Assembly (NCBI GenBank): GCA_903909215.1
Contig: CAIVUX010000006.1
Coordinates: 1 to 64,000 of the forward strand
Reading direction: 5' to 3'
From: an uncultured Ferrovum sp.
GTDB lineage: Bacteria; Pseudomonadota; Gammaproteobacteria; Burkholderiales; Ferrovaceae
Length of the DNA stretch: 64,000 bases
Part shown: positions 200 through 29,676 of the stretch, one piece after another
Position numbering within the stretch: the first letter of the stretch is position 1
How the letters are laid out: each line of letters begins with the position of its first letter
Position numbers and translations under genes: made by a program
The notes under the pieces: model-generated
The model's input: the letters and a program-made list of their open reading frames with translations, nothing else
Told to the model about the DNA's origin: nothing
The model's database searches: none

Positions 200-2089
200 T
201 TAATCTTCGTTATTATCAACAAAACTGCGCAGTCGCTCCGACCGTGATGGATGACGCAACTTACGCAAGGCCTTCGCTTCGATCTGGCGAATACGCTCAC
301 GGGTTACATCAAACTGCTTACCCACTTCTTCTAAGGTGTGATCGGTGTTCATCTCAATACCAAAACGCATACGCAATACTTTGGCTTCGCGCTGTGTCAG
401 TGAATCCAACACATCCTTAGTGGCATCGCGCAGGCTGGCATATAGCGCCGAATCCGCCGGGGCCACCGTGGTAGTGTCTTCAATAAAATCACCCAAGTGC
501 GAATCATCGTCATCGCCAATGGGGGTTTCCATAGAAATAGGCTCTTTGGAGATTTTAAGAATCTTGCGAATCTTTTCTTCCGGCATTTCCATCTTCTTGG
601 CCAATTCGGCAGGATCGGGCTCTTGGCCGGTTTCTTGCAGAATTTGGCGCGAGATGCGGTTCATCTTATTGATGGTTTCAATCATGTGCACCGGAATGCG
701 GATGGTGCGCGCCTGATCGGCAATGGAACGGGTAATGGCTTGGCGAATCCACCAGGTAGCATAGGTGGAAAACTTATAGCCACGGCGGTATTCAAACTTA
801 TCCACGGCCTTCATTAAACCAATATTGCCTTCCTGAATTAAATCGAGGAACTGCAAACCACGGTTGGTGTATTTTTTGGCGATGGAAATCACCAAACGCA
901 AGTTGGCTTCAATCATTTCGCGCTTGGCGCGCCGTGCACGGGCTTCACCCGTGGACATTTGACGGGCAATTTCTTTCAGATCCTTAATGGGGATTCCCAC
1001 TTCTTTTTGCAGGGCGATCAAGTTTTCTTGCTGCTCAATCACGGAATGCTTAAAGCGGCCCAGAATGGTGCAATAGGCCTTGCGGGTGGCCATTTCATCC
1101 AACACCCACTTGGTATTGACTTCATTACCAGGGAAGGACTTAATAAAATGCGCACGTGGCATGCCGGAAGTGGTCACGCAGAGCTTCATAATTTCACGCT
1201 CGTATGAGCGTACGCGGTCTACCAAGCGACGCAGGCCATTACAGAGCGCCTCCACTTGTTTGGCGGAAAAGCGAATGCCCATCAATTCGGCAGTAATGGC
1301 TTCTTGCAAATCTTTGTAAGCACGGCTGCGCGCACCCTTCTCGGTGAGCGCCTTGCGCATGCGCTTATTAAGACTACGAATGGACTTAAAGTGCACCAAG
1401 GCGTCTTGTTTTAATTGCTCAAGATTGGCACTGGCGATGGCGCTGTCTTCATCTTCCTGTTCTTCTTCCGAGAGCTCTACTTCCGGCTCTTCGGCCACCA
1501 CTTCAGGCGCCACTTCATCCTGACCGCTGGCGTCTACCAATCCATCAATCACTTCATCAATGCGCAATTCATTGCGCTCAACCTTATCCACCATGGACAA
1601 GATTTCATCAATGGTAGTGGGGCAGGACGAAATAGCCTGAATCATGTGCTTCAGGCCATCTTCAATACGCTTGGCAATTTCAATTTCGCCCTCGCGCGTC
1701 AGCAGTTCCACCGTGCCCATTTCGCGCATGTACATGCGCACGGGGTCCGTGGTGCGACCAAAGTCTGAATCTACCGTGGAGAGCGCAGCTTCTGCTTCTT
1801 CCATGACCGCTTCATCGGCCACAGGAGGGGGTGCTTCGGACATCAGCAATTGCTCGCTGTCCGGGGCTTCGTCGTAAACGGCGATGCCCATGTCGTTAAT
1901 CATGCCAATCACGGACTCAATCTGTTCCGCATCCAGCATATCGTCGGGAATATGATCGTTAATTTCGGCGTAGGTGAGGAAACCGCGCTCCTTACCCAGG
2001 ACAACCAGGTTCTTTAGGCGGGTGCGTTGTGCTTCAACATCCGCTTGTCGGGATTCTGAACGGGGGCTATCTGTGGCCATATGCGTCAC
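200..2089 (-). CDS. rpoD: RNA polymerase primary sigma factor RpoD (sigma 70)
   Basis: Housekeeping sigma factor, 629 aa, which directs RNA polymerase to -35/-10 promoters. An acidic N-terminal region 1.1 is followed by region 1.2 ([20 protein letters not shown] from about residue 115). An acidic non-conserved insert lies around residues 200-220. Region 2 begins near residue 393 ([18 protein letters not shown], then [20 protein letters not shown] for -10 recognition and melting). Region 4 with its helix-turn-helix ([18 protein letters not shown]) lies near the C-terminus. It is the last gene of the rpsU-yqeY-dnaG-rpoD macromolecular synthesis group, and its stop is nearly contiguous with a broken tRNA. 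MTHMATDS or the internal Met4 could be the start. Confidence 0.98.
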
Positions 2090-2150
2090 GCCTCTTGAAG
2101 AGATTCAATAGATTCTGTTGCAAAACCATATAGTGTATCACAAAGCGTCC

Positions 2151-3902
2151 CTAAACCTTTCGAGGACCCGCACGTGATGATGTAAGTTGTTGAAGTAATT
2201 GCATTTCTTCATCCGTTAGGGGGCGCGAACGGGCGTCCGCCAGCAATGCATCCACAGTCCGATCGTGAGTCAGGGCATTTAAACGTTGCAAGCCCTCTGC
2301 GTAGAGCGTTGCCAATTGCTCTGTTGGACTGGACTCGATGCCGGGAAATTCCCGACGCAGAGCCTCTTGAATAAAATTCTCTTCCGGTTGCCCCCTAAAA
2401 TGTTCCACGATGGCCGCCAGGTTTACAGGGGTCTCTGCGTGATGGATGTAGGCCGTCACGGCCTGCAGCGCCCGTTCGTCAGGCATTACCGTGGGGTAAT
2501 GGGGAAAACCATGGTTCGCCACCAAGGAGGGCTCATGCAACACGCAGGCCATTAAACGGGCCGATAGCGAACTGGGGGCTGCGCGTGGCGCACGGGCCAC
2601 AGGGTTGCGTGTGGCTTGTGTGGGCGCCACACCCATTAACGAATCTACATCCTGGCGCTCTACGCGTGCCAAGGCCCCAATGCGGGTGCGCAGCAGCAAT
2701 GACAACGCGGGCGCGCTAATTTGGTCTAGGGCGGCTTTGGCCCCTTTTAAGAACTGGGCACGACCTTCGGCACGTGTCATATCCACGCCCACAGTAAGCG
2801 ATTCCAACAAATATTCTGATAAGGGCGTGGCTTGGCTCAGCAATTGTTCAAAGGCTTCTTTGCCTTGTGTGCGAACATAACTGTCCGGATCTTCACCCTC
2901 AGGTAAAAACAAAAACGATACTTGTTTGCCATCTACCAAATGCGGCAAGGCAATATCAAGAGCGCGATGTGCGGCATTGCGCCCGGCCTTATCGCCATCA
3001 AAAGAAAAAATGACGGAGTCCGCCATGCGCAATAACTTTTGCACATGCACCGCCGTAGTGGCGGTGCCTAAGGTGGCCACGGCATACTCCACACCGGCTT
3101 GTGCCAAGGCCACCACATCCATATAGCCCTCCACCACCACCACACGCTGCCCATCGCGAATGGCGCGGCGCGCTTGGGTTAGGCCATACAGTTCACGACC
3201 TTTCTCAAAGAGCGGCGTTTCAGGGGAGTTGAGGTATTTCGGTTCGCCCGGGCCAATGACACGACCGCCAAAGCCAATCACTTCGCCGCGGCTATCCAAA
3301 ATAGGAAACATCACGCGCCCACGAAAACGATCGTAGCGTTTGCCCTCTTCCCCTTGAATCACCAAACCCGCTTCCACCAAGCGTGGGGCATCATAATCAG
3401 GAAACACGGCAGAGAGGTTGCGCCAGGCTTCAGGCGCGTAACCCAAGCCAAAGCGTGCAGCGATGGCACCGGTTAGCCCGCGTTGCTTTAAATAAGCGAT
3501 GGCGGTTTCGCTGCCCTTTAATTGCGCGCGGTAATAATCAGTTGCTTGGCGCATGGGGCCTGCCAACTCGCCTTGTGCTTCAACGCGCGCTGCAATGGCC
3601 GGACTGTTTTGTTCATGCGGCACTTCCAAGCCCACTTGCTGGGCCAACTCTTCCACCGCATCCACAAAACTGGCGCCGGTGTATTCCATAATAAAACCCA
3701 AAGCGCTGCCCGTGGCACCGCAACCGAAGCAATAGTAAAACTGCTTGGCGGGGTTAACAGAAAACGAAGGAGATTTTTCAGAATGGAACGGACAGCGTGC
3801 CACAAAATTGGCACCGGTTTTTTTAAGCGGCACATAGCGCTCGATGGTGTCGACAATATCGACCCGGCCCAACAATGTTTGAATGAAATCTCGTGGGATC
3901 AT
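2151..3902 (-). CDS. dnaG: DNA primase DnaG
   Basis: Synthesises RNA primers at the replication fork with DnaB helicase. The 583-aa protein has an N-terminal CHC2 zinc-binding domain (C37, H40, C58, C61 in CPFHSEKSPSF and YYCFGCG). A catalytic core with a TOPRIM fold follows (VVVVEGYMDV with the acidic Glu, and later FSFDGDKAG). The C-terminal helical part should bind DnaB. It lies 61 bp upstream of rpoD on the same strand, the usual arrangement of the macromolecular synthesis operon, which ties transcription, translation and replication initiation together. The ATG at 3902 lies 54 bp after the yqeY stop. Confidence 0.98.
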   Translation of the reverse strand: MIPRDFIQTLLGRVDIVDTIERYVPLKKTGANFVARCPFHSEKSPSFSVNPAKQFYYCFGCGATGSALGFIMEYTGASFVDAVEELAQQVGLEVPHEQNSPAIAARVEAQGELAGPMRQATDYYRAQLKGSETAIAYLKQRGLTGAIAARFGLGYAPEAWRNLSAVFPDYDAPRLVEAGLVIQGEEGKRYDRFRGRVMFPILDSRGEVIGFGGRVIGPGEPKYLNSPETPLFEKGRELYGLTQARRAIRDGQRVVVVEGYMDVVALAQAGVEYAVATLGTATTAVHVQKLLRMADSVIFSFDGDKAGRNAAHRALDIALPHLVDGKQVSFLFLPEGEDPDSYVRTQGKEAFEQLLSQATPLSEYLLESLTVGVDMTRAEGRAQFLKGAKAALDQISAPALSLLLRTRIGALARVERQDVDSLMGVAPTQATRNPVARAPRAAPSSLSARLMACVLHEPSLVANHGFPHYPTVMPDERALQAVTAYIHHAETPVNLAAIVEHFRGQPEENFIQEALRREFPGIESSPTEQLATLYAEGLQRLNALTHDRTVDALLADARSRPLTDEEMQLLQQLTSSRAGPRKV

Positions 3903-3956
3903 GCGCCAGACTCACCCTCGAATGATGCCCCCTGTGGGGCGATAACCGTTTGAGGC

Positions 3957-4406
3957 TTAGCCTGCCACCAAACGGGCTTTGACCAGAGCAGAGACTTGCC
4001 CCATGTCAGAGCGTCCTGCCAACTGAGGCCGCACCAGCGCCATGACGCGCGCCATATCTTGCATACCAGCGGCTCCCGACTCGGCAACCGCTTGATCCAC
4101 AATGTCCGCCACCTCTGTCTCGGAGAGCGCCTGTGGCATATATTCTTGCAATACGCCCACTTCAAACTTTTCTTGATCGGCCAAGTCGTGACGGGCGGCC
4201 GCTTCAAATTGGGTAATAGAATCTTTGCGCTGCTTGAGCATTTTGTCCAAGATGGTCAGCACGTCCGCATCAGTCAATTCAATCCGCTCATCCACTTCTT
4301 TTTGTTTGATGGCCGCCAAAACAAGTCGAATGGCGTTCAGGCGCGCGGCGTCGCGGGCGCGCATGGCCGATTTCATATCTTCCGTGATACGGAGTTTTAA
4401 TGTCAT
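3957..4406 (-). CDS. GatB/YqeY domain protein
   Basis: A 149-aa protein of the YqeY family, which resembles the C-terminal tRNA-binding tail domain of GatB, the amidotransferase subunit that corrects misacylated tRNA. Typical residues are the N-terminal helix (MKSAMRARDAARLNAIRLVL), IKQKEVDERIELTD, and the C-terminal MGQVSALVKARL. It sits between rpsU and dnaG, a position common in betaproteobacteria. Its function as a free-standing protein is not established. One copy of the GGGGTCAGACCCC repeat lies in the 44-bp gap between it and rpsU. Confidence 0.93.
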   Translation of the reverse strand: MTLKLRITEDMKSAMRARDAARLNAIRLVLAAIKQKEVDERIELTDADVLTILDKMLKQRKDSITQFEAAARHDLADQEKFEVGVLQEYMPQALSETEVADIVDQAVAESGAAGMQDMARVMALVRPQLAGRSDMGQVSALVKARLVAG

Positions 4407-4417
4407 GCCCGTTGAGA

Positions 4418-4430
4418 GGGGTCAGACCCC
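4418..4430. repeat. GGGGTCAGACCCC palindrome, single copy
   Basis: Exact copy, extended to a 17-bp palindrome by flanking GA and TC (4416-4432). It lies between rpsU and yqeY on the same transcript and could form a hairpin in the mRNA that separates expression of rpsU from the downstream genes. Confidence 0.9.
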
Positions 4431-4450
4431 TCGCCACAAGTTGGGAGTGA

Positions 4451-4663
4451 TTAATATAACTTAGGGGGCAGCATTTGGCTGCGCAGGCGCTTGTAACGGC
4501 GCTTTACGGCGGCAGCCAGCTTGCGCTTGCGCTCGGCTGTGGGCTTTTCGTAAAACTCACGGGCACGCAATTCGGTCAAAAGCCCTGTCTTTTCAACGGC
4601 GCGCTTAAAGCGGCGCAGTGCGACATCAAAGGGCTCGTTTTCTTTTACACGGATGTTAGCCAT
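4451..4663 (-). CDS. rpsU: 30S ribosomal protein bS21
   Basis: A 70-aa, strongly basic protein typical of bS21: N-terminal [20 protein letters not shown], then [20 protein letters not shown]. It joins the small subunit near the anti-Shine-Dalgarno end of 16S rRNA and aids initiation. It is the first gene of the rpsU-yqeY-dnaG-rpoD group. A good sigma 70 promoter lies upstream at 4707-4736. Confidence 0.97.
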
Positions 4664-4706
4664 TCAAACCTCTAATCAACAACAAAGTCAGTGGGAAAAG
4701 CGTGCG

Positions 4707-4736
4707 ATTATAGCAGTCTCCCACCCATTTTGTCAC
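4707..4736 (-). promoter_or_regulatory. predicted sigma 70 promoter of rpsU
   Basis: On the minus strand, a -35-like GTGACA (4731-4736) is separated by 18 bp from a perfect -10 TATAAT (4707-4712). The rpsU ATG is about 44 bp downstream. tsaD diverges on the other side. Confidence 0.6.
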
Positions 4737-4782
4737 CGGGGTGATTAAAATGACGCCATAAACCTTAGGAAAATCTCATTTT

Positions 4783-5817
4783 ATGCTGATTTTGGGTATT
4801 GAAACCTCTTGTGACGAGACCGGTATCGCCTTATATGACAACGCCTTGGGTCTGCTGGGTGAAGCCCTACACTCACAGGTGGCCCTGCATAACGAATATG
4901 GCGGAGTAGTGCCGGAGTTGGCCTCACGGGACCATATTCGCCGCGTAGTGCCCTTAATTCGCCAAACCCTGAACCAGGCCCAGCGCACTTTAGCTGATTT
5001 GGATGCGGTGGCCTACACGGCAGGACCGGGCCTAGCAGGCGCCCTTTTGGTAGGCGCCTCGGTGGCTGAATCTCTGGCCATGGCGCTGAAGATCCCAGCC
5101 CTACCCATTCATCATCTGGAAGGTCACCTTCTCTCTCCCTTATTGGGCGACAACCCGCCTGCTTTCCCCTTTGTGGCCCTCTTGGTGTCTGGGGGACACA
5201 CGCAGTTCATGTCTGTGGAAGGCGCTGGACAGTATCGACTGCTGGGCGAAACTGTGGACGATGCAGCAGGAGAAGCCTTCGATAAAACGGCTAAGCTGCT
5301 GGGCCTGCCCTATCCCGGTGGACCAGCCTTGGCCCAATTGGCCACCACCGGCCACCCACAGCGCTTTGCGTTACCGCGTCCCATGCAGCACAGCGGCGAT
5401 CTCAATTTAAGCTTCAGCGGACTTAAGACTGCGGTTTCCCTATTGATTAAAACCCATGGGTCTGCAGCACATGCGGATATTGCAGCCAGTTTTGAAGCGG
5501 CGGTGGTGGAGGTGTTGTGCAGCAAGGCTTTGCAAGCCTTACGACAAACGGGATTAAAACAATTGGTGGTGGCCGGCGGTGTGGGGGCCAATAAGCAGCT
5601 GCGCGCTGCACTCACCTCGCAACTGGCCCGGCATGGTGCCACAGTGGCGTTTCCACCCCTGCATTTATGCACCGATAACGGCGCCATGATTGCCTACGCC
5701 GGCGCGCTGCGCTGTCTTGAACAGGGTATTGAGGCGTTGCCCACCCACCAAGGCTTTGCGGTTTATCCGCGCTGGCCGCTGGCCACCACCCGGGGTCAGA
5801 CCCCCCCCGGGGTCTGA
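4783..5817 (+). CDS. tsaD: tRNA N6-threonylcarbamoyladenosine synthase TsaD
   Basis: Transfers the threonylcarbamoyl group from TC-AMP to A37 of ANN-decoding tRNAs, together with TsaB and TsaE. The 344-aa sequence starts [18 protein letters not shown] and has the metal-binding HHLEGH motif (H111, H115). It also has the conserved [26 protein letters not shown] and [10 protein letters not shown]. The last eight residues or so (GQTPPGV) are encoded by a triple GGGGTCAGACCCC array, which also supplies the TGA stop. That tail is therefore not family sequence. The gene converges on moeB and overlaps it by 22 bp inside the same repeat. Confidence 0.97.
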
Positions 5818-5838
5818 CCCCGGGGGGGGTCTGACCCC
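5792..5838. repeat. triple array of the 13-bp palindrome (13-4-13-4-13)
   Basis: Exact copies at 5792-5804, 5809-5821 and 5826-5838, separated by CCCC and GGGG. The array encodes the C-termini of both converging genes, tsaD and moeB, and contains both stop codons. An identical 47-bp array lies at 19680-19726 inside earP. Confidence 0.95.
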
Positions 5839-6581
5839 TTGCAAACGGGGCAATGAGGGTCGCGTGGCACACGAATGCTTTGCCATTCCATGGTGAGGGC
5901 GTTGAGCAGCAGCAAGCGCCCGGCCAAAGTTTGACCAATGCCTGCCAACAGCTTTAGTGTTTCTGCCGCTTGTGTGGCGCCCACGATTCCCACCAAGGGC
6001 GAGAACACACCGGTCAGCGCACAACGCAACTCATCGCTACCCGCCTCCTCTGGAAACAGACAGTGGTAACAAGGGGCGCCCTCACGGCGCGTATCAAATA
6101 CCGCGATTTGTCCATCAAAGCGAATGGCAGCACCCGATACCAAGGGTTTGCGGTGCGCCACACAGGCTCGGTTTACATTGTGACGCGTGTCAAAATTATC
6201 ACTACAATCCAACACCACATCCGCATTGGCTACCAAAGCCTTTAATTCATCGCCTTCCACGCGATGCGTTACCGCGTGCACCACCACTTCAGGGTTAATG
6301 GAGAGCAACGCAGAACGCGTGGCTTCCGCTTTGTTGTGATCAATATCGCAAGTGCGCAAAGCAATTTGACGTTGCAAGTTGGTGAGGTCTGCCACATCAC
6401 CATCGCAGAGGGTGATGTGTCCTACGCCGCTGGCGGCCAAATAAAGTGCTGCGGGAGACCCCAAACCACCGGCTCCGATAATAAGGACGTGAGCCTTTCG
6501 AATAAGGGTCTGACCCTCTACGCCTATTTCATTGAGTAGGATGTGGCGGCTGTAGCGCAGCAGCTGGGTGTCCTCCATCAT
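5796..6581 (-). CDS. moeB: HesA/MoeB/ThiF family adenylyltransferase
   Basis: E1-like enzyme that adenylates the C-terminal glycine of a small sulfur carrier (MoaD or ThiS). It has a Rossmann nucleotide-binding motif ([19 protein letters not shown], from residue 34). [14 protein letters not shown] and two zinc-binding CxxC pairs (CYHC and CPVC) follow. MoeB and ThiF cannot be told apart with certainty from sequence, and no moa or thi gene is nearby. Residues from about 248 to the end ([13 protein letters not shown]) come from the repeat array shared with tsaD, and the TGA stop is part of the repeat. It lies 18 bp from ctpA on the same strand and may be cotranscribed with it. Confidence 0.92.
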
Positions 6582-6599
6582 GAAACCCAGCCGCTAAAC

Positions 6600-8009
6600 C
6601 TAGTTACTCTTGGGGGCTTTGCCGCCCTTCAAGAAGGCAATGGCTTGATCCAACTGATAGTCGGGTTTTTCTTTTCCGTCTTCCGCATGAGCCTCAACCT
6701 TGGTAGCGGGTTTAAGCGCGGTTTCTGGTTTTTTCACAGGCTTATCCACGGGCTTGGCGGCGGCAGAATCATTGGGGTTGGAAAGATGCTTTTCCAAATC
6801 TGATTCGCGAATGCCTAGGTTTTCATCCACCACATTCGGGTCTTCCGGCACCACCACATCCGGCACAATACCCTTGGCCTGAATGGAGCGGCCGCTGGGT
6901 GTGAAGTAACGGGCTGTGGTGAGTTTTAATGCCGTATTGCTGGTAAGAGGCAATATGGTTTGCACCGACCCCTTGCCAAAAGTTTGCGTACCCATAATGG
7001 TGGCGCGATGATGGTCTTGTAGAGCACCCGCTACAATTTCAGAAGCTGAGGCCGAACCATTATTCACCAACACCACCATAGGAATCTTTTTACTATCCAC
7101 CGGTAAATTGGCGGCATAGTCCGCATCTGTTGGGCCGCGTAAATAATTTTCAGGGGTCACTGTAAGACGCATTTTGGCATCGGCCACGCGCCCTTCGGTG
7201 TACACCACCAACGCATCTTTAGGTAAGAAGGCTGCGGACACACCCACTGCCGCATTCAGCAACCCACCCGGATCATTGCGCAAATCCAGCACCAACCCTT
7301 TTAGCTGACCGTTGTTGTCCTTATAGGCTTTCTCAATAGCCGTCGCCAAATCTTCTCCAGTGCGTTCCTGAAATTGACTGACGCGCACAGAGGCATAACC
7401 GGGCTCGATTTCCTTGAGTTTCACGCTCTTCATTTTAATCACCGCACGCACCAAGGTCAGCACCAGGGGCTTATGTTCATTCTTACGCAAGATGGTAATG
7501 ACAATCGGCGTGTCAGGCTTGCCACGCATGCGTTTCACGGCATCGTTTAGGGTTAACCCTTTTACTGCGGTATCGTCTAGCTTGATAATATAGTCGCCGG
7601 GCTTAACGCCAGCACGTGCAGCCGGCGTGTCGTCGATAGGAGAGACCACTTTCACCAACCCATCTTCCATAGTCACTTCAATACCCAAGCCGCCAAACTC
7701 GCCTTGAGTTCCGGCCTGTAATTCCTTGTAAGCGTCTTGATCGAGGTACGCTGAATGGGGATCGAGACCTGCCACCATACCTGTAATGGCTTCTTTGATA
7801 AGCTGCTTGTCGTCCACAGGCTCCACGTAGTCGCTCTTGATGCGGCCAAACACCTCACTGAAGGTGCGCAGTTCCTCTACCGGCAATGGTCCAGGCGTTG
7901 GCGCACGTTCGGCCACCGCAGAAAAATTCAGCGCCAGAGCAAACCCCACAATGGCGCCCAATACCACTAATCCTACTTTTTTTAATTGCCCACCCATGCC
8001 CAATCCCAC
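6600..8009 (-). CDS. ctpA: S41 family C-terminal processing peptidase
   Basis: Periplasmic serine protease of 469 aa with an N-terminal signal/anchor helix (VGLVVLGAIVGFALALNF). A PDZ domain follows (GGLGIEVTMEDGLVKVVSPI ... GVKPGDYIIKLDD). The S41 catalytic core has the Ser in NNGSASASEIVAGALQD and the Lys in GTQTFGKGSVQ, the usual Ser/Lys dyad. Family members trim the C-termini of periplasmic proteins and murein hydrolases. It is preceded by envC with 12 bp between them, a pairing common in proteobacteria and consistent with a role in cell-wall turnover. Confidence 0.95.
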   Translation of the reverse strand: MGLGMGGQLKKVGLVVLGAIVGFALALNFSAVAERAPTPGPLPVEELRTFSEVFGRIKSDYVEPVDDKQLIKEAITGMVAGLDPHSAYLDQDAYKELQAGTQGEFGGLGIEVTMEDGLVKVVSPIDDTPAARAGVKPGDYIIKLDDTAVKGLTLNDAVKRMRGKPDTPIVITILRKNEHKPLVLTLVRAVIKMKSVKLKEIEPGYASVRVSQFQERTGEDLATAIEKAYKDNNGQLKGLVLDLRNDPGGLLNAAVGVSAAFLPKDALVVYTEGRVADAKMRLTVTPENYLRGPTDADYAANLPVDSKKIPMVVLVNNGSASASEIVAGALQDHHRATIMGTQTFGKGSVQTILPLTSNTALKLTTARYFTPSGRSIQAKGIVPDVVVPEDPNVVDENLGIRESDLEKHLSNPNDSAAAKPVDKPVKKPETALKPATKVEAHAEDGKEKPDYQLDQAIAFLKGGKAPKSN

Positions 8010-8021
8010 CCTTAAAATAGT

Positions 8022-9293
8022 TTAAGGCCGTCCCACCCAAGTCATTGGGTCAAACGGCTTACTTTGATAGCGAATCTCGAAGTATAGACCCGATTCACTG
8101 TTTCCACCGGTACTGCCCGCAGTGGCGATGGTGGCGCCCCCTTGAACGGTATCCCCCACCTGAGCATACAAACTCTGCGCGCCCCCATACAAACTCATGT
8201 AACTGCCACCATGATCCATAATCAACAAATTGCCAAAACCACGCAACCAATCGGCAAAGACCACACGCCCAGAAGCCACGGCCCGCACCTCTCGGCCCTC
8301 GGGGGCGCGAATAAATAGCCCCTTCCAACTTAACCCCCCGTCTGAGCGTGGACCACCAAAACGGTTGGTGAGTTCCCCAGCCATGGGTAAACGCAGGTGC
8401 CCCTTCATGTGCGCGAAGGATTCGTCGTCATAGCCTTGTTCGGGCACTTTGTCGATAAGGGCCAATGTGGGCGCACGTGCTGCATCAGAACCCGGTTTGG
8501 TGGCCGGTGCCTTGGCCCCCGCAGCAGCCGCAGCGGCACTCTCAGCTTGTTTTTGTTGACGCGCGCGGCGTTCTTGCTCCCGTTGCGCCAACACGCGCGC
8601 AATATCTTCCACCAACTTGGTGAGCCGCTTTTCATCACGCTGCAAAGAATCTAGACTGCGTTTTTGTTGTTTTAACTTACCCGAAAGCGTGGACACCGCG
8701 AGAGCGCGCGCCACCGTTTCGGCCTGCAAGCGTTTGCGTTGCGCGGCCTGCTGCGTCTGGATTGCCGCCAGTTGTTGTGCCTTAGCCTCACGAGCCGCAG
8801 TGACTTGGCTTAAAACTTGCAAATCGCCACGCAAAGAGCGCACCAAGTCCGCACGTGAGCGCGCAATGTCACGCAGATATTCCATCTCGCGCACCAAGTC
8901 GGCGGGGTCAGACCCCGAAAAAAGCAAAGGCAACGCATCGGACACGCCGCGCTCGTAACGCTGACGCAATAACTGAGCCAAAACCGCTTGGCCATGATCT
9001 ATTTCATCGCGCGTATGTCCGCTGCGGGTATGCAGCTGAGCCAACTCAGTTTGAACTTGACGCTGCTGCTGTTCTAAATCGCGTAAGGTACGGTTGGCCT
9101 CGCTGATGGCGCGCTCGGACTGCTTGAGCGCATCCACAGCTTCGCTGCGCGATCCTTCTGTACTTTGCAAATCTTGCTGCAATTGCTGAATACGGGCGCG
9201 CAGCCCATCCAGATCGTTGACCGGACTCGCCAACACGGGCAGCGCCACAAGGCCGCATAACAGTAAAAATGAAATGTGAAACGGACCACTCAT
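8022..9293 (-). CDS. envC: EnvC-like murein hydrolase activator
   Basis: A 423-aa periplasmic protein with a signal peptide (FLLLCGLVALPVLASP). Long coiled coils run from about residue 28 to 250, then an Ala/Lys-rich linker, then a C-terminal LytM/M23 domain. The M23 zinc ligands are not conserved: NRFGG stands where HxG is expected, and LYFEIR where HxHFE is expected. It is therefore probably catalytically inactive and works as an activator of amidases at the septum, as EnvC does. A GGGGTCAGACCCC copy at 8904-8916 encodes GSDP within the coiled coil and may be native. Its start abuts the gpmA stop. Confidence 0.92.
   Translation of the reverse strand: MSGPFHISFLLLCGLVALPVLASPVNDLDGLRARIQQLQQDLQSTEGSRSEAVDALKQSERAISEANRTLRDLEQQQRQVQTELAQLHTRSGHTRDEIDHGQAVLAQLLRQRYERGVSDALPLLFSGSDPADLVREMEYLRDIARSRADLVRSLRGDLQVLSQVTAAREAKAQQLAAIQTQQAAQRKRLQAETVARALAVSTLSGKLKQQKRSLDSLQRDEKRLTKLVEDIARVLAQREQERRARQQKQAESAAAAAAGAKAPATKPGSDAARAPTLALIDKVPEQGYDDESFAHMKGHLRLPMAGELTNRFGGPRSDGGLSWKGLFIRAPEGREVRAVASGRVVFADWLRGFGNLLIMDHGGSYMSLYGGAQSLYAQVGDTVQGGATIATAGSTGGNSESGLYFEIRYQSKPFDPMTWVGRP
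8904..8916. repeat. GGGGTCAGACCCC copy inside envC
   Basis: Exact 13-mer coding GSDP in FSGSDPADL of envC. Because it fits smoothly into the coiled-coil region and is a single copy, it may be chance or native sequence rather than an insertion. Confidence 0.6.
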
Positions 9294-10043
9294 TCAGGAC
9301 TTGGCACGCCCTTGGTTGGCCACCGCTGCAGCGCTCTGTGCAATTTTTACAGGGTCGCCCAGATAATAGTGCTTCATCGCTTTTAGATTATCGTCTAACT
9401 CATACACCAAGGGGACGCCGGTGGGGATATTAAGGCTCAGGATGGACTCATGGCTAATATTGTCCAAATGCTTCACCAAGGCACGCAGGGAATTACCATG
9501 GGCCACAATGATAATATTGCGACCCTCCTGAATGGAAGGTGTAATGACTTCGTTCCAATAGGGCAACACGCGTGCCACAGTATCCTTAAGGCTTTCACCG
9601 CGCGGAAATTGGTCACGCGTCAAATGAGCGTAGCGCGGATCATTAATTTCGCAGCGCGGGTCATCTAAAGCAATAAGCGGGGGTGGAATGTCATAACTGC
9701 GCCGCCATTGCAGCACTTGCGCCTCACCAAATTGCACCGCCGTCTCAGCTTTGTTAAGCCCTTGCAGATCGCCGTAATGGCGCTCGTTTAAGCGCCAATG
9801 GCCCTGTACCGGCATCCACATGCGCTCCATGGCTTCTAAACCAATCCACAAGGTTTTAATGGCACGCTTTAGCAGCGAGGTGTAGGCCAAATCCAGCTCA
9901 AAGCCCGCTTCTTTAAGAGCCAGGCCCGCTGAGAGCGCCTCACCTCGACCGCGTGCAGACAAATCTACATCGGCCCAACCGGTGAAACGGTTTTCTTCAT
10001 TCCACACACTGTGGCCATGGCGCAGCAGGACAATTTTTTTCAT
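9294..10043 (-). CDS. gpmA: 2,3-bisphosphoglycerate-dependent phosphoglycerate mutase
   Basis: Interconverts 3- and 2-phosphoglycerate in glycolysis and gluconeogenesis. The 249-aa length matches the dPGM family. The phosphohistidine motif is [18 protein letters not shown] near the N-terminus. [14 protein letters not shown] and the second catalytic histidine in [12 protein letters not shown] are also present. It is the first gene of a minus-strand group with envC and ctpA. A 164-bp gap separates it from the divergent rhodanese gene. Confidence 0.97.
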
Positions 10044-10207
10044 GGGACGCTGTATTTGTCGTTGATTAACAGCCTCATTTTATCAGCCTGCCTACAACTC
10101 TGCCCATAAAGCTAAAAAGCGGCAAGCCGGCCCGCCCAACAGTAACGCGTGGAATAAGGGCCGATCTGTTAGAATATGCCCCACTTGAAACCATTGGAGT
10201 AACGCGC

Positions 10208-10633
10208 TTGGACTTCCTTTTACAACATCTGGGTTTGGTGGCTTTGGTCATTGCCAGCGCCCTACTCTTAGCGTGGCCTGAAATTCAGGGTTTAATGGGT
10301 CAACAAAACACCGTGGGCACCTTAGAAGCCACTCAGCTGATCAACCAGAAACATGCCATTATTATCGATTTACGACGCACTCAGGACTATGAGGCGGGTC
10401 ATTTGCCCCAGGCGCGGCACATTCCCGCCGACGAACTATCTTCAAGGGTTGGCGAGGTGGTGCGCTTCCATAGCCGCCCCGCCATCTTGATAACCACCGG
10501 TGCCAGTGCCAATGCAGGGGCGGTTAAAACGCTAAAAGCGCAAGGTTTTACTGACGTTTTCACGCTTAAAGGCGGTGTACTGGCTTGGGTTGAAGCCAGC
10601 CTACCCATCGAGCGCAGCGCTGTTAAGGCTTAA
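10208..10633 (+). CDS. membrane-anchored rhodanese-like protein lacking the catalytic Cys
   Basis: A 141-aa protein with an N-terminal membrane segment (LGLVALVIASALLLAWP) and one rhodanese domain (IIIDLRRTQDYEAGHLPQA, IPADEL, and KGGVLAWVEASLPI at the end). The active-site loop, normally C-x-x-G-x-R, reads TTGASAN, and the whole protein has no cysteine. Sulfurtransferase activity is therefore unlikely. The start is TTG, supported by GGAG about 8 nt upstream; no ATG gives the full domain. The position before grxC and secB matches yibN of other proteobacteria. It is cotranscribed with grxC, whose ATG follows immediately. Confidence 0.85.
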   Translation: MDFLLQHLGLVALVIASALLLAWPEIQGLMGQQNTVGTLEATQLINQKHAIIIDLRRTQDYEAGHLPQARHIPADELSSRVGEVVRFHSRPAILITTGASANAGAVKTLKAQGFTDVFTLKGGVLAWVEASLPIERSAVKA

Positions 10634-10906
10634 ATGGCTTCAGTAACCTTCTACTGCACTGCGTTTTGCCCCTATTGCACCATGGCTGAGCGCTACTTGG
10701 CCAAGAAGGGCGTTACCACCCTAGAAAAAATTCGAGTGGATTTGGACCGCGCACAAAGGGCGGTCATGATGGAGCGCACGGGGCGGCGCACCGTGCCACA
10801 AATTTTTATCAACAATACCCATGTGGGCGGGTATGACGACTTGGTCGCGCTGGACCACGCGGGGGGGTTAGACCCCTTGCTGGCCGACCTTACTTCAGGA
10901 AAATGA
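10634..10906 (+). CDS. grxC: glutaredoxin 3
   Basis: A 90-aa thioredoxin-fold protein that reduces disulfides with glutathione. The active site is CPYC in YCTAFCPYCTMAERYL. The cis-proline motif TVPQIFIN and the glutathione-binding HVGGYDDL also fit GrxC. It starts directly after the rhodanese stop and overlaps secB by a few bases, so the three form one operon. The GGGGTTAGACCCC at 10864-10876 resembles the repeat family but differs at one base and codes for the ordinary family sequence GGLDPLL. Confidence 0.96.
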   Translation: MASVTFYCTAFCPYCTMAERYLAKKGVTTLEKIRVDLDRAQRAVMMERTGRRTVPQIFINNTHVGGYDDLVALDHAGGLDPLLADLTSGK

Positions 10907-11388
10907 AAATGGCTGACGACGCCGCACAAACCAACAATGAACCGGTCTTTGTAATTGAAAAAATTTACGTTAAGGACGCTTCCTTAGAAGTCCCCAACGC
11001 GCCCCAAGTGTTTTTGGAGCGTGAAGCCCCTGAAATCAATGTGGAGCTGAGTAACGGCAGCGAACCCATTGACAACGGCGTGTTTCAAACCACCGTGAAG
11101 GTGACGGTTACCGCCAAGGTAAAAGACAAAACATTATTCTTGGTGGAGGTTGTACAAGCGGGTATTTTTCGCTTGCAAAATATTCCCGGTACCGATATGC
11201 CGATCGTATTGGGCGTGACTTGTCCCAATATTATTTACCCCTACGCCCGTGAAGTGATTTCTGATTTGGTAACACGCGCCGGCTTCCCCACCGTGATGCT
11301 AAATCCGGTTAATTTTGAAGCACTCTACCAACAACGCCTGCAACAAGCAGAAGCGCAAGCGGTAGACGCTCCCGAGGTGGCTCACTAA
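10903..11388 (+). CDS. secB: protein-export chaperone SecB
   Basis: Cytoplasmic tetrameric chaperone that keeps preproteins unfolded and passes them to SecA. The 161-aa sequence has the family blocks FVIEKIYVKDASLEVPNAP, LFLVEVVQAGIF, CPNIIYPYAREVISDLVTR and GFPTVMLNPVNFEALY. The start may be ATG 10903 or the second ATG at 10909 (MADDAAQ). It overlaps grxC and precedes gpsA, a common gene order. Confidence 0.97.
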   Translation: MKMADDAAQTNNEPVFVIEKIYVKDASLEVPNAPQVFLEREAPEINVELSNGSEPIDNGVFQTTVKVTVTAKVKDKTLFLVEVVQAGIFRLQNIPGTDMPIVLGVTCPNIIYPYAREVISDLVTRAGFPTVMLNPVNFEALYQQRLQQAEAQAVDAPEVAH

Positions 11389-11391
11389 ACC

Positions 11392-12375
11392 GTGAATATC
11401 GTCATTCTAGGCAGTGGTGCCTGGGGAACTGCGCTAGCGCTCAGTTTTTCAGGCCGGCATGGTGTGACGTTGTGGGGTCGCGATGCGCATTTTCTCAAAA
11501 CATTAGAGAGCACGCGCCTCAATAGCCGTTATCTGCCCAAACACCCTCTGCCCCCGCACTTGGTGATTGAGGGCCACTTACCACGCGCGTTGGCGCAAGC
11601 GGAACTGGCTGTTGTGGCGGTGCCCGTGGCTGGGCTGCGCGAAACACTTACGCAGGTGGCCCATCAGCAGCCCAACCTGCCTGTGCTGTGGGCCTGCAAA
11701 GGCTTTGAAACCGGCAGCGGCTTTCTGCCTCATCAAATTGTGGCAGAGACGTTGTCCACCAACATTTCTTGCGGCGTTTTGTCAGGGCCCAGTTTTGCCG
11801 AAGAAATCGCCAACGGTCTGCCGGCCGCCATCACTCTTGCCTCTGCCGGCACCGATTTTGCGCGCCAAACCAGCCAGGCCTTACATGGCCATCGTCTGCG
11901 CATTTATTCCAGCAGCGATGTGGTCGGTGTAGAACTGGCGGGAGCATTAAAAAATGTCATCGCCATCGCGGCCGGGCTCTCTGATGGATTAAACCTAGGG
12001 TATAACGCGCGTGCGGCATTAATTACCCGCGGCCTAGCCGAAATAGCGCGTTTAGGGGTAGCTGTAGGTGGGCGCATTGAAACCTTTATGGGGCTATCGG
12101 GCTTAGGCGATTTGGTATTGACTTGCACGGGCGCTCTGTCACGCAATTACCGCGTGGGTTTGGCCTTGGCACGCGGTGAATCGCTGCCGGCCATCCTAAG
12201 TGGGTTAGGACATGTGGCGGAGGGGGTTACATCCGCGGCTGAAGCCTACCGATTGGCCCGTCATCATGAAGTGGAAATGCCCATCACAGAAGCCGTGCGT
12301 GCCGTATTGAGCGGCGAGCTGACCGTTCATAAAGCTGTAGAACAACTTATGGCACGCGAACCCCGTTCAGAATAA
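11392..12375 (+). CDS. gpsA: NAD(P)H-dependent glycerol-3-phosphate dehydrogenase
   Basis: Reduces dihydroxyacetone phosphate to sn-glycerol 3-phosphate for phospholipid synthesis. The 327-aa protein begins with the Rossmann motif MNIVILGSGAWGTALALSF. It contains the conserved GVLSGPSFAEEIANGLP, the catalytic-Lys block GALKNVIAIAAGLSDGLNLG, and GLSGLGDLVLTCTG. It uses a GTG start 4 nt after the secB stop. It is the last gene of the rhodanese-grxC-secB-gpsA group. Confidence 0.97.
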   Translation: MNIVILGSGAWGTALALSFSGRHGVTLWGRDAHFLKTLESTRLNSRYLPKHPLPPHLVIEGHLPRALAQAELAVVAVPVAGLRETLTQVAHQQPNLPVLWACKGFETGSGFLPHQIVAETLSTNISCGVLSGPSFAEEIANGLPAAITLASAGTDFARQTSQALHGHRLRIYSSSDVVGVELAGALKNVIAIAAGLSDGLNLGYNARAALITRGLAEIARLGVAVGGRIETFMGLSGLGDLVLTCTGALSRNYRVGLALARGESLPAILSGLGHVAEGVTSAAEAYRLARHHEVEMPITEAVRAVLSGELTVHKAVEQLMAREPRSE

Positions 12376-29200: not shown

Positions 29201-29229
29201 CAGCCATTGTAAATGTGTAAACGTATCAT

Positions 29230-29261
29230 GGGGTCAGAATCCAAATCTGGGGTCTGACCCC
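29230..29261. repeat. 13-bp palindrome with a degenerate partner
   Basis: An exact copy at 29249-29261 and a degenerate one (GGGGTCAGAATCC) at 29230-29242, separated by AAATCT. They form the 3' end of the small HTH gene on the minus strand and include its TGA stop. Confidence 0.85.
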
Positions 29262-29434
29262 AAGTAACTCTTTTGAATCGCCCCTGTATAAATGACACGG
29301 ACAGGAAACGTATTAGTAGAAACTTGGTTATAAATAGTTTGCTTTGCTTTGCGCAGTATTTTGGCACACTCAGCGGGGGTCAAATTTGGCGTATTTGGAA
29401 AAATATTTTTTAACTCATCTAGGATAGTAGGCAT
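29234..29434 (-). pseudogene. truncated helix-turn-helix (excisionase/AlpA-like) protein
   Basis: A 66-aa frame. LTPAECAKILRKAKQTIYNQ followed by NTFPVRVIYTG looks like the DNA-binding helix-turn-helix and wing of small phage or island regulators of the AlpA/excisionase type. The last nine residues (GSDPRFGF and the stop) are encoded by the 13-bp repeat pair, which seems to have replaced the natural C-terminus. It lies between an EamA gene and a tRNA-Pro half, so it is best read as the remains of an integrated element. The family assignment is by motif only. Confidence 0.5.
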
Positions 29435-29440
29435 TTTTTT

Positions 29441-29510
29441 GTTGAAAATCCGTTGAAAAAAGCGTTGAAAATAAGTAGTAAATGAAGATTCTTGTAGTAA
29501 ACAATAGTAA
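29441..29510 (+). repeat. short iterated repeats near the tRNA-Pro half
   Basis: GTTGAAAA occurs at 29441, 29452 and 29464 (11-12 bp apart). GTAGTAAA follows at 29475 and 29494, and TAGTAA at 29505. Such iterons between a small HTH gene and a broken tRNA resemble integrase or excisionase arm sites. No other feature is seen in 29435-29576. Confidence 0.5.
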
Positions 29511-29576
29511 CTGCCAGTAAGACTAACTCATTGTTAATAAATATAATCCATGTAACTGCTTGCTCTGATATTCGCC

Positions 29577-29615
29577 TCCCGAACGCAGTACTCTACCAGG
29601 CTGAGCTACACCCCG
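29577..29615 (-). pseudogene. 5' half of tRNA-Pro(CGG)
   Basis: From 29615 on the minus strand, the first 39 nt of a tRNA-Pro are intact: acceptor strand CGGGGTG, D arm TAGCTCAGCCTGGTAGAGTA, anticodon strand CTGCG, and loop TTCGGGA with anticodon CGG. The next bases (GGCGAATATC) do not continue the tRNA: there is no CGCAG to close the stem, no T arm and no CCA. As with the CAT tRNA at 156-194, the break is just after the anticodon loop. Confidence 0.7.
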
Positions 29616-29676
29616 AATGTAACGCCATCAACTGGAAACAAAATTCTATCCTAGCGCGCATGCTATCGCTAGAACA

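Follow-up and report, generated by a model that had tools for sequence, protein, structure and literature searches.

How does a tRNA gene come to end at its own anticodon loop and run on into DNA of a different character? This question is raised by an interval of 476 bp (29201–29676) that lies between an EamA gene and an amidotransferase gene in the genome of an uncultured Ferrovum sp. The interval is part of a stretch of 64,000 nucleotides that was analysed as a whole and is called the window here. In it, the sequence of a native tRNA gene breaks off where its anticodon loop ends, and AT-rich DNA of foreign appearance follows. We consider it quite probable that the locus preserves the remnant of an element that had integrated into the anticodon loop and whose deletion also took the tRNA.

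A native tRNA gene cut at its anticodon loop

The first 39 nucleotides of a tRNA-Pro(CGG) gene are found on the minus strand at 29577–29615. They are identical (39/39) to the intact syntenic genes of four genomes of the same family (G004, G006, G007 and G012), which served as the reference for this alignment, and the 5' half named in the preliminary description is thereby borne out. The half closes with the anticodon loop TTCGGGA (29583–29577, minus strand). Identity to the intact genes stops at the seventh base of this loop, and the alignment places the junction between the tRNA half and the foreign DNA at its 3' edge, between 29576 and 29577. In a blastn search of its own genome with tRNA-Pro(CGG), the half aligned over positions 1–42 at 98%. 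When the window was scanned with ARAGORN and Rfam, no tRNA was called at 29577–29615, as expected, because only a tRNA half is present. A 3' half hidden beyond the junction was also considered and ruled out, since the similarity of the next 80 nucleotides to the lost half does not rise above that of shuffled sequences (797 of 1000 score as high).

Is this the place where the gene belongs? In all four reference genomes this amidotransferase gene, downstream of ispB, is directly followed by an intact tRNA-Pro(CGG), so that a look at relatives, as had been advised, did find the intact gene at the corresponding place. The amidotransferase gene and the tRNA are about 40–75 bp apart in these genomes and 61 bp apart here, the gap at 29616–29676 (minus strand) representing the native upstream region of the tRNA gene. 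On a larger scale, at least 24 of 60 relatives show a match to tRNA-Pro that follows ispB on its strand at a distance of up to about 1.5 kb, a count that includes the two weakest matches (G039 and G052), taken without an anticodon check. In at least three further relatives of the 60 the match is divergent beside ispB, and in at least four others (G013, G019, G024 and G028) it is about 5 kb away. Because the complete identity over 39 positions is accompanied by the same neighbouring genes in relatives, tRNA-Pro(CGG) is native at this locus.

The seven nucleotides of the anticodon loop are the usual crossover segment of tyrosine integrases that target tRNA genes. As far as a tRNA target broken at a known sublocation marks an island, what is found here is a native tRNA-Pro(CGG) cut at the edge of its anticodon loop.

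The EamA gene is also on the downstream side of tRNA-Pro(CGG) in G012, about 10 kb off. There (contig C230, about 2080–12130) the two are separated by roughly 10 kb of metabolic genes, recognized by eye as coding for an ATPase, an MFS transporter, an aldehyde dehydrogenase and an amidase.

Islands at the same gene in related genomes

Within the family, an integrase domain was detected at this tRNA in five of the 24 relatives searched (G001, G006, G007, G008 and G014), each time some 1.5 kb beyond tRNA-Pro(CGG) on its downstream side. The five islands present the tRNA, phased repeats, a small protein ORF and the integrase, in the same order as the parts of the remnant, and an ORF of 76–77 aa precedes the integrase ORF in every one of them. 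Their repeats are of the GTGCC or GGTG (GGTGAC) types with a phasing of 10–11 bp; they begin 83–137 bp after the tRNA and are located at +83 to +169 from its end. The one integrase tested, that of G007, matches PHROG_1 (integrase) with an E-value of 2e-58 and has an arm-binding domain.

Displaced 3' tRNA fragments that are not at contig ends occur in at least four relatives (G006, G007, G014 and G018), and in all of these the homology begins at the anticodon loop. A displaced 5' fragment that would be convincing was not seen in relatives among the matches listed; a 5' tRNA piece on contig C9 of G047 and a tRNA piece on contig C4 of G025 were dropped as evidence, as both are at contig ends. The integrase islands and the fragments starting at the loop therefore establish tRNA-Pro(CGG) as a used integration site in the family, and the crossover point of the relatives is the very position where the gene of the window is broken.

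The remnant thus resembles the five islands in its target gene, its crossover point and the order of tRNA, repeats and small gene, and these likenesses support the earlier suggestion of a mostly deleted element. It differs from them in that their tRNA is restored with a 3' half, in that their motifs are GTGCC and GGTGAC, and in its small protein, which is unrelated where compared (G007).

A further arrangement was observed in G015 (contig C4), where two tRNA-Pro copies (4335–4411 and 7165–7239) are 2.8 kb apart. The second copy is degenerate, with a TTAGGGA loop and a shortened anticodon stem, and similar GTGCC repeats follow each copy, so that the whole looks like tandem island ends.

AT-rich DNA with phased repeats

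The DNA next to the junction (29263–29576), which we regard as the probable remnant of the inserted element, has a GC content of 34.4% versus 53.7% in the window and is the lowest in GC among all 314-bp stretches of the window. From the junction outward it contains TTTACTAC twice, TTTTCAAC three times and then the small HTH ORF, which reads away from the tRNA. Counted from the junction in the sense of the tRNA, the positions are +95 and +76 for the two TTTACTAC repeats (29475–29501) and +106, +118 and +129 for the three TTTTCAAC repeats (29441–29471), which are spaced by 12 and 11 bp. The iterated repeats reported at the outset could accordingly all be located, with copies of GTTGAAAA at 29441–29448, 29452–29459 and 29464–29471 and copies of GTAGTAAA at 29475–29482 and 29494–29501. 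Some 8-mer is present three times in 27 of 2000 mononucleotide shuffles, a figure that does not demand the phasing of 11–12 bp.

We propose the TTTTCAAC repeats as putative arm sites of an integrase or excisionase. It is possible, if only tentatively so, that they are instead the operator through which the HTH gene regulates itself: the last TTTTCAAC repeat ends 6 bp ahead of the presumed ATG at 29434, and repeats of this kind often occur elsewhere with no tRNA nearby, whereas the phased repeats of the relatives (10–11 bp) are found at a comparable distance with a small gene that does not start right after them. The two roles are mutually compatible.

Could the repeats serve as a fingerprint of the element? 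The pattern of three GTTGAAAA repeats recurs in at least 119 genome stretches elsewhere and in one viral contig, and at three of the 119 loci listed a tRNA is at most 600 bp away. One of these, from a MAG of Methanimicrococcus, has a simple tandem repeat of great length, and the other two, when read through, revealed no island end. Since none of the three resembles an island end, the triple repeat was rejected as a fingerprint; being frequent without island ends, the repeats alone are therefore not diagnostic. The 16-mer at the junction, which occurs in two viral contigs, was set aside too, for the similarity is limited to the pattern itself and lies within apparent coding DNA. Comparison of the remnant DNA with the arms of eight relatives gave similarities that 12 to 198 of 200 shuffles match as well, and in a search of the stretch's DNA against phages and plasmids, the matches listed are confined to that part of the query which is tRNA.

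The small HTH protein and the palindrome at its end

The ORF of the small HTH protein (29234–29434, minus strand) is an excisionase candidate by its position. It had been described as a protein of excisionase type, and the HTH part of this description finds a match in Pfam HTH_17 (E 8e-4, 20 bits), under the cut-off of 27 bits. The excisionase label itself is positional, combined with this weak HTH match, and is weak by sequence: PHROG_66 (excisionase and transcriptional regulator) is reached only with an E-value of 0.049. A single-sequence structure model is poor, with a mean pLDDT of 61.5. No homologues were found in 60 relatives, where its own genome is the sole match among 61, and a survey of 369 genomes returned its own match plus three weak ones (E 0.004–0.009). 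Genome contigs, viral contigs, phages and plasmids contain no close relatives of the protein, and no alignment was obtained with the small protein from G007, the only relative whose island was compared.

The left edge of the remnant is formed by a REP-like hairpin of 34 bp (29229–29262; z −5.5) of the GGGGTCWGACCCC family, which encodes the last nine or so residues of the HTH protein. To this extent the repeat pair that had been said to truncate the protein does supply its end. The GGGGTCWGACCCC core, however, has 329 sites in the 1.53-Mb assembly, 23 of them within the window, and a reversed control pattern has none; the palindrome is therefore neither specific to this locus nor a product of the element. 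As a member of this genome-wide family, the 13-bp repeat is ruled out as an att site. What remains of its proposed place at a deletion edge is that the palindrome may mark the left edge of the remnant and with it a possible deletion end. Like REP elements, it is a hairpin in hundreds of copies, intergenic here; unlike them, it comes without a detectable Y1_Tnp (RAYT-type) transposase, as a search of this assembly for PF01797 gave no match. A literature search by the exact motif returned no relevant REP paper.

A sequence with 329 sites might also have misled the assembly by joining, between the EamA gene and the remnant, two pieces that do not belong together. In this draft of 51 contigs, several (C3, C5, C9 and C27) do end in or near GGGGTCWGACCCC palindromes. 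The hairpin, however, measures just 34 bp, the EamA gene of G012 is likewise downstream of tRNA-Pro(CGG), and there is no repeat at the junction of tRNA and remnant, so that we hold such an artefact to be very unlikely.

What the assembly lacks

A search of the genome's own assembly found no intact tRNA-Pro(CGG) and no 3' half of it; next in similarity come tRNA-Pro(GGG) at 84% and tRNA-Pro(TGG) at 81%. Genes with a Phage_integrase domain number only two, neither of them at this locus, and from their number and length they are probably XerC and XerD. No other integrase was found in the assembly. The preliminary description, which had noted the missing 3' half and integrase and had called for a search for the tRNA elsewhere, was right on this point, apart from the two probable Xer genes. 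A regenerated tRNA and a displaced fragment at two ends of an island are not seen here, where a single 5' fragment is present. With no integrase, no second fragment and no restored tRNA, we therefore speak of a remnant and not of an island.

Only 34 tRNA genes were found in the assembly, and anticodons for Phe, Asn and Ile are absent as well. To our knowledge there is no cell without these tRNAs. Gaps in the assembly therefore hide some tRNAs, and the absence of tRNA-Pro(CGG) is not proof of its loss. If it is truly gone, CCG codons, which account for 26 of the 117 proline codons counted in eight neighbouring genes, must be read by another tRNA. The wobble of tRNA-Pro(UGG) is widened by the enzyme CmoB. 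A search of the assembly with the PF08003 profile produced one match of 24.2 bits in an ORF of 238 aa, which by eye looks like UbiG, and no convincing CmoB.

Might ordinary decay suffice, with no element at all? A deletion in a dispensable tRNA-Pro(CGG) would then have joined its 5' half to AT-rich intergenic DNA with a chance HTH gene. tRNA-Pro(TGG) is present and might cover CCG, no integrase is left besides the two probable Xer genes, and the HTH match is weak. Yet the gene is broken precisely at the anticodon loop's edge, which is also the point used by the islands of relatives, and the adjoining DNA is the most AT-rich in the window, with phased repeats where islands have arm sites. On balance we judge decay to be unlikely.

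How the scar may have formed

If the locus is the remnant of an integrated element, a tyrosine integrase would have recombined the attachment site of the element with the anticodon loop of 7 bp. In this view the phased repeats would have been the arm-type sites of the integrase, and the HTH protein would have served the element as excisionase. The integrase, the cargo and the remaining tRNA would have been lost later, in a deletion that took out DNA between the HTH and EamA genes, at a site that may now be marked by the REP-like palindrome.

Elements that form tRNA islands normally restore the tRNA and displace a 3' fragment of it, which is why the missing 3' half needs explaining. Within this explanation we weighed three courses by judgement. 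The first, for which the chances seem about evenly balanced, is an element carrying a 5' half: the remaining piece would be the 5' fragment that such an element displaces, and its intact counterpart, a full tRNA at the far end, would have been lost in the same single deletion to the EamA side. In our judgement, this explains everything at least cost. An integration that did not restore the tRNA, followed by one deletion, is rather doubtful, and so, to the same degree, is an element of the ordinary 3'-half type followed by a second deletion, which requires that one deletion ended by chance exactly at the loop edge.

If the element integrated at the anticodon loop without any tRNA half, integration itself would have destroyed tRNA-Pro(CGG), and the lineage would have survived by reading CCG with tRNA-Pro(UGG) in a genome with no convincing CmoB. 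We think this improbable. A literature search on integration that leaves a tRNA unrestored found no report.

Relation to known integrated elements

Classical tyrosine recombinases use an overlap-and-core layout (PMC8371274), which is matched by the anticodon loop of 7 bp and the palindromic stem around it. The Islander collection (PMC4383910) comprises 3760 islands in which the tRNA fragment is a 3' one and 159 in which it is a 5' one; anticodon-centred sites number 2083. With the anticodon-loop class (Islander site A) the locus shares the tRNA target, the break at the loop, the phased repeats and a small gene for a putative DNA-binding protein by the junction; it differs as a remnant that has no integrase, cargo, second tRNA fragment or restored tRNA. 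The islands with a 5' fragment are alike in having a 5' tRNA piece at one end; they differ in that an intact tRNA is to be expected at their far end, which the remnant lacks.

The scar is thus of an ordinary, known kind, and no general picture is changed by it; what is unusual is a tRNA lost along with the element. It records a mobile element that would have cost its host a tRNA gene instead of leaving the tRNA restored, and it accounts for a small AT-rich stretch that annotation would label a hypothetical gene.

The same genome also contains, at 6155–6199 of contig C4, a 3' half of tRNA-Lys(CTT) of 45 nt, identical to the intact gene on contig C34. The half starts exactly at the anticodon loop, and the DNA before it is AT-rich with ACTACACAC repeats; judged by these features, it appears to be a second island end. 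The 9-mer TTTACTACA is common to this region and to the remnant in the window, which may be chance.
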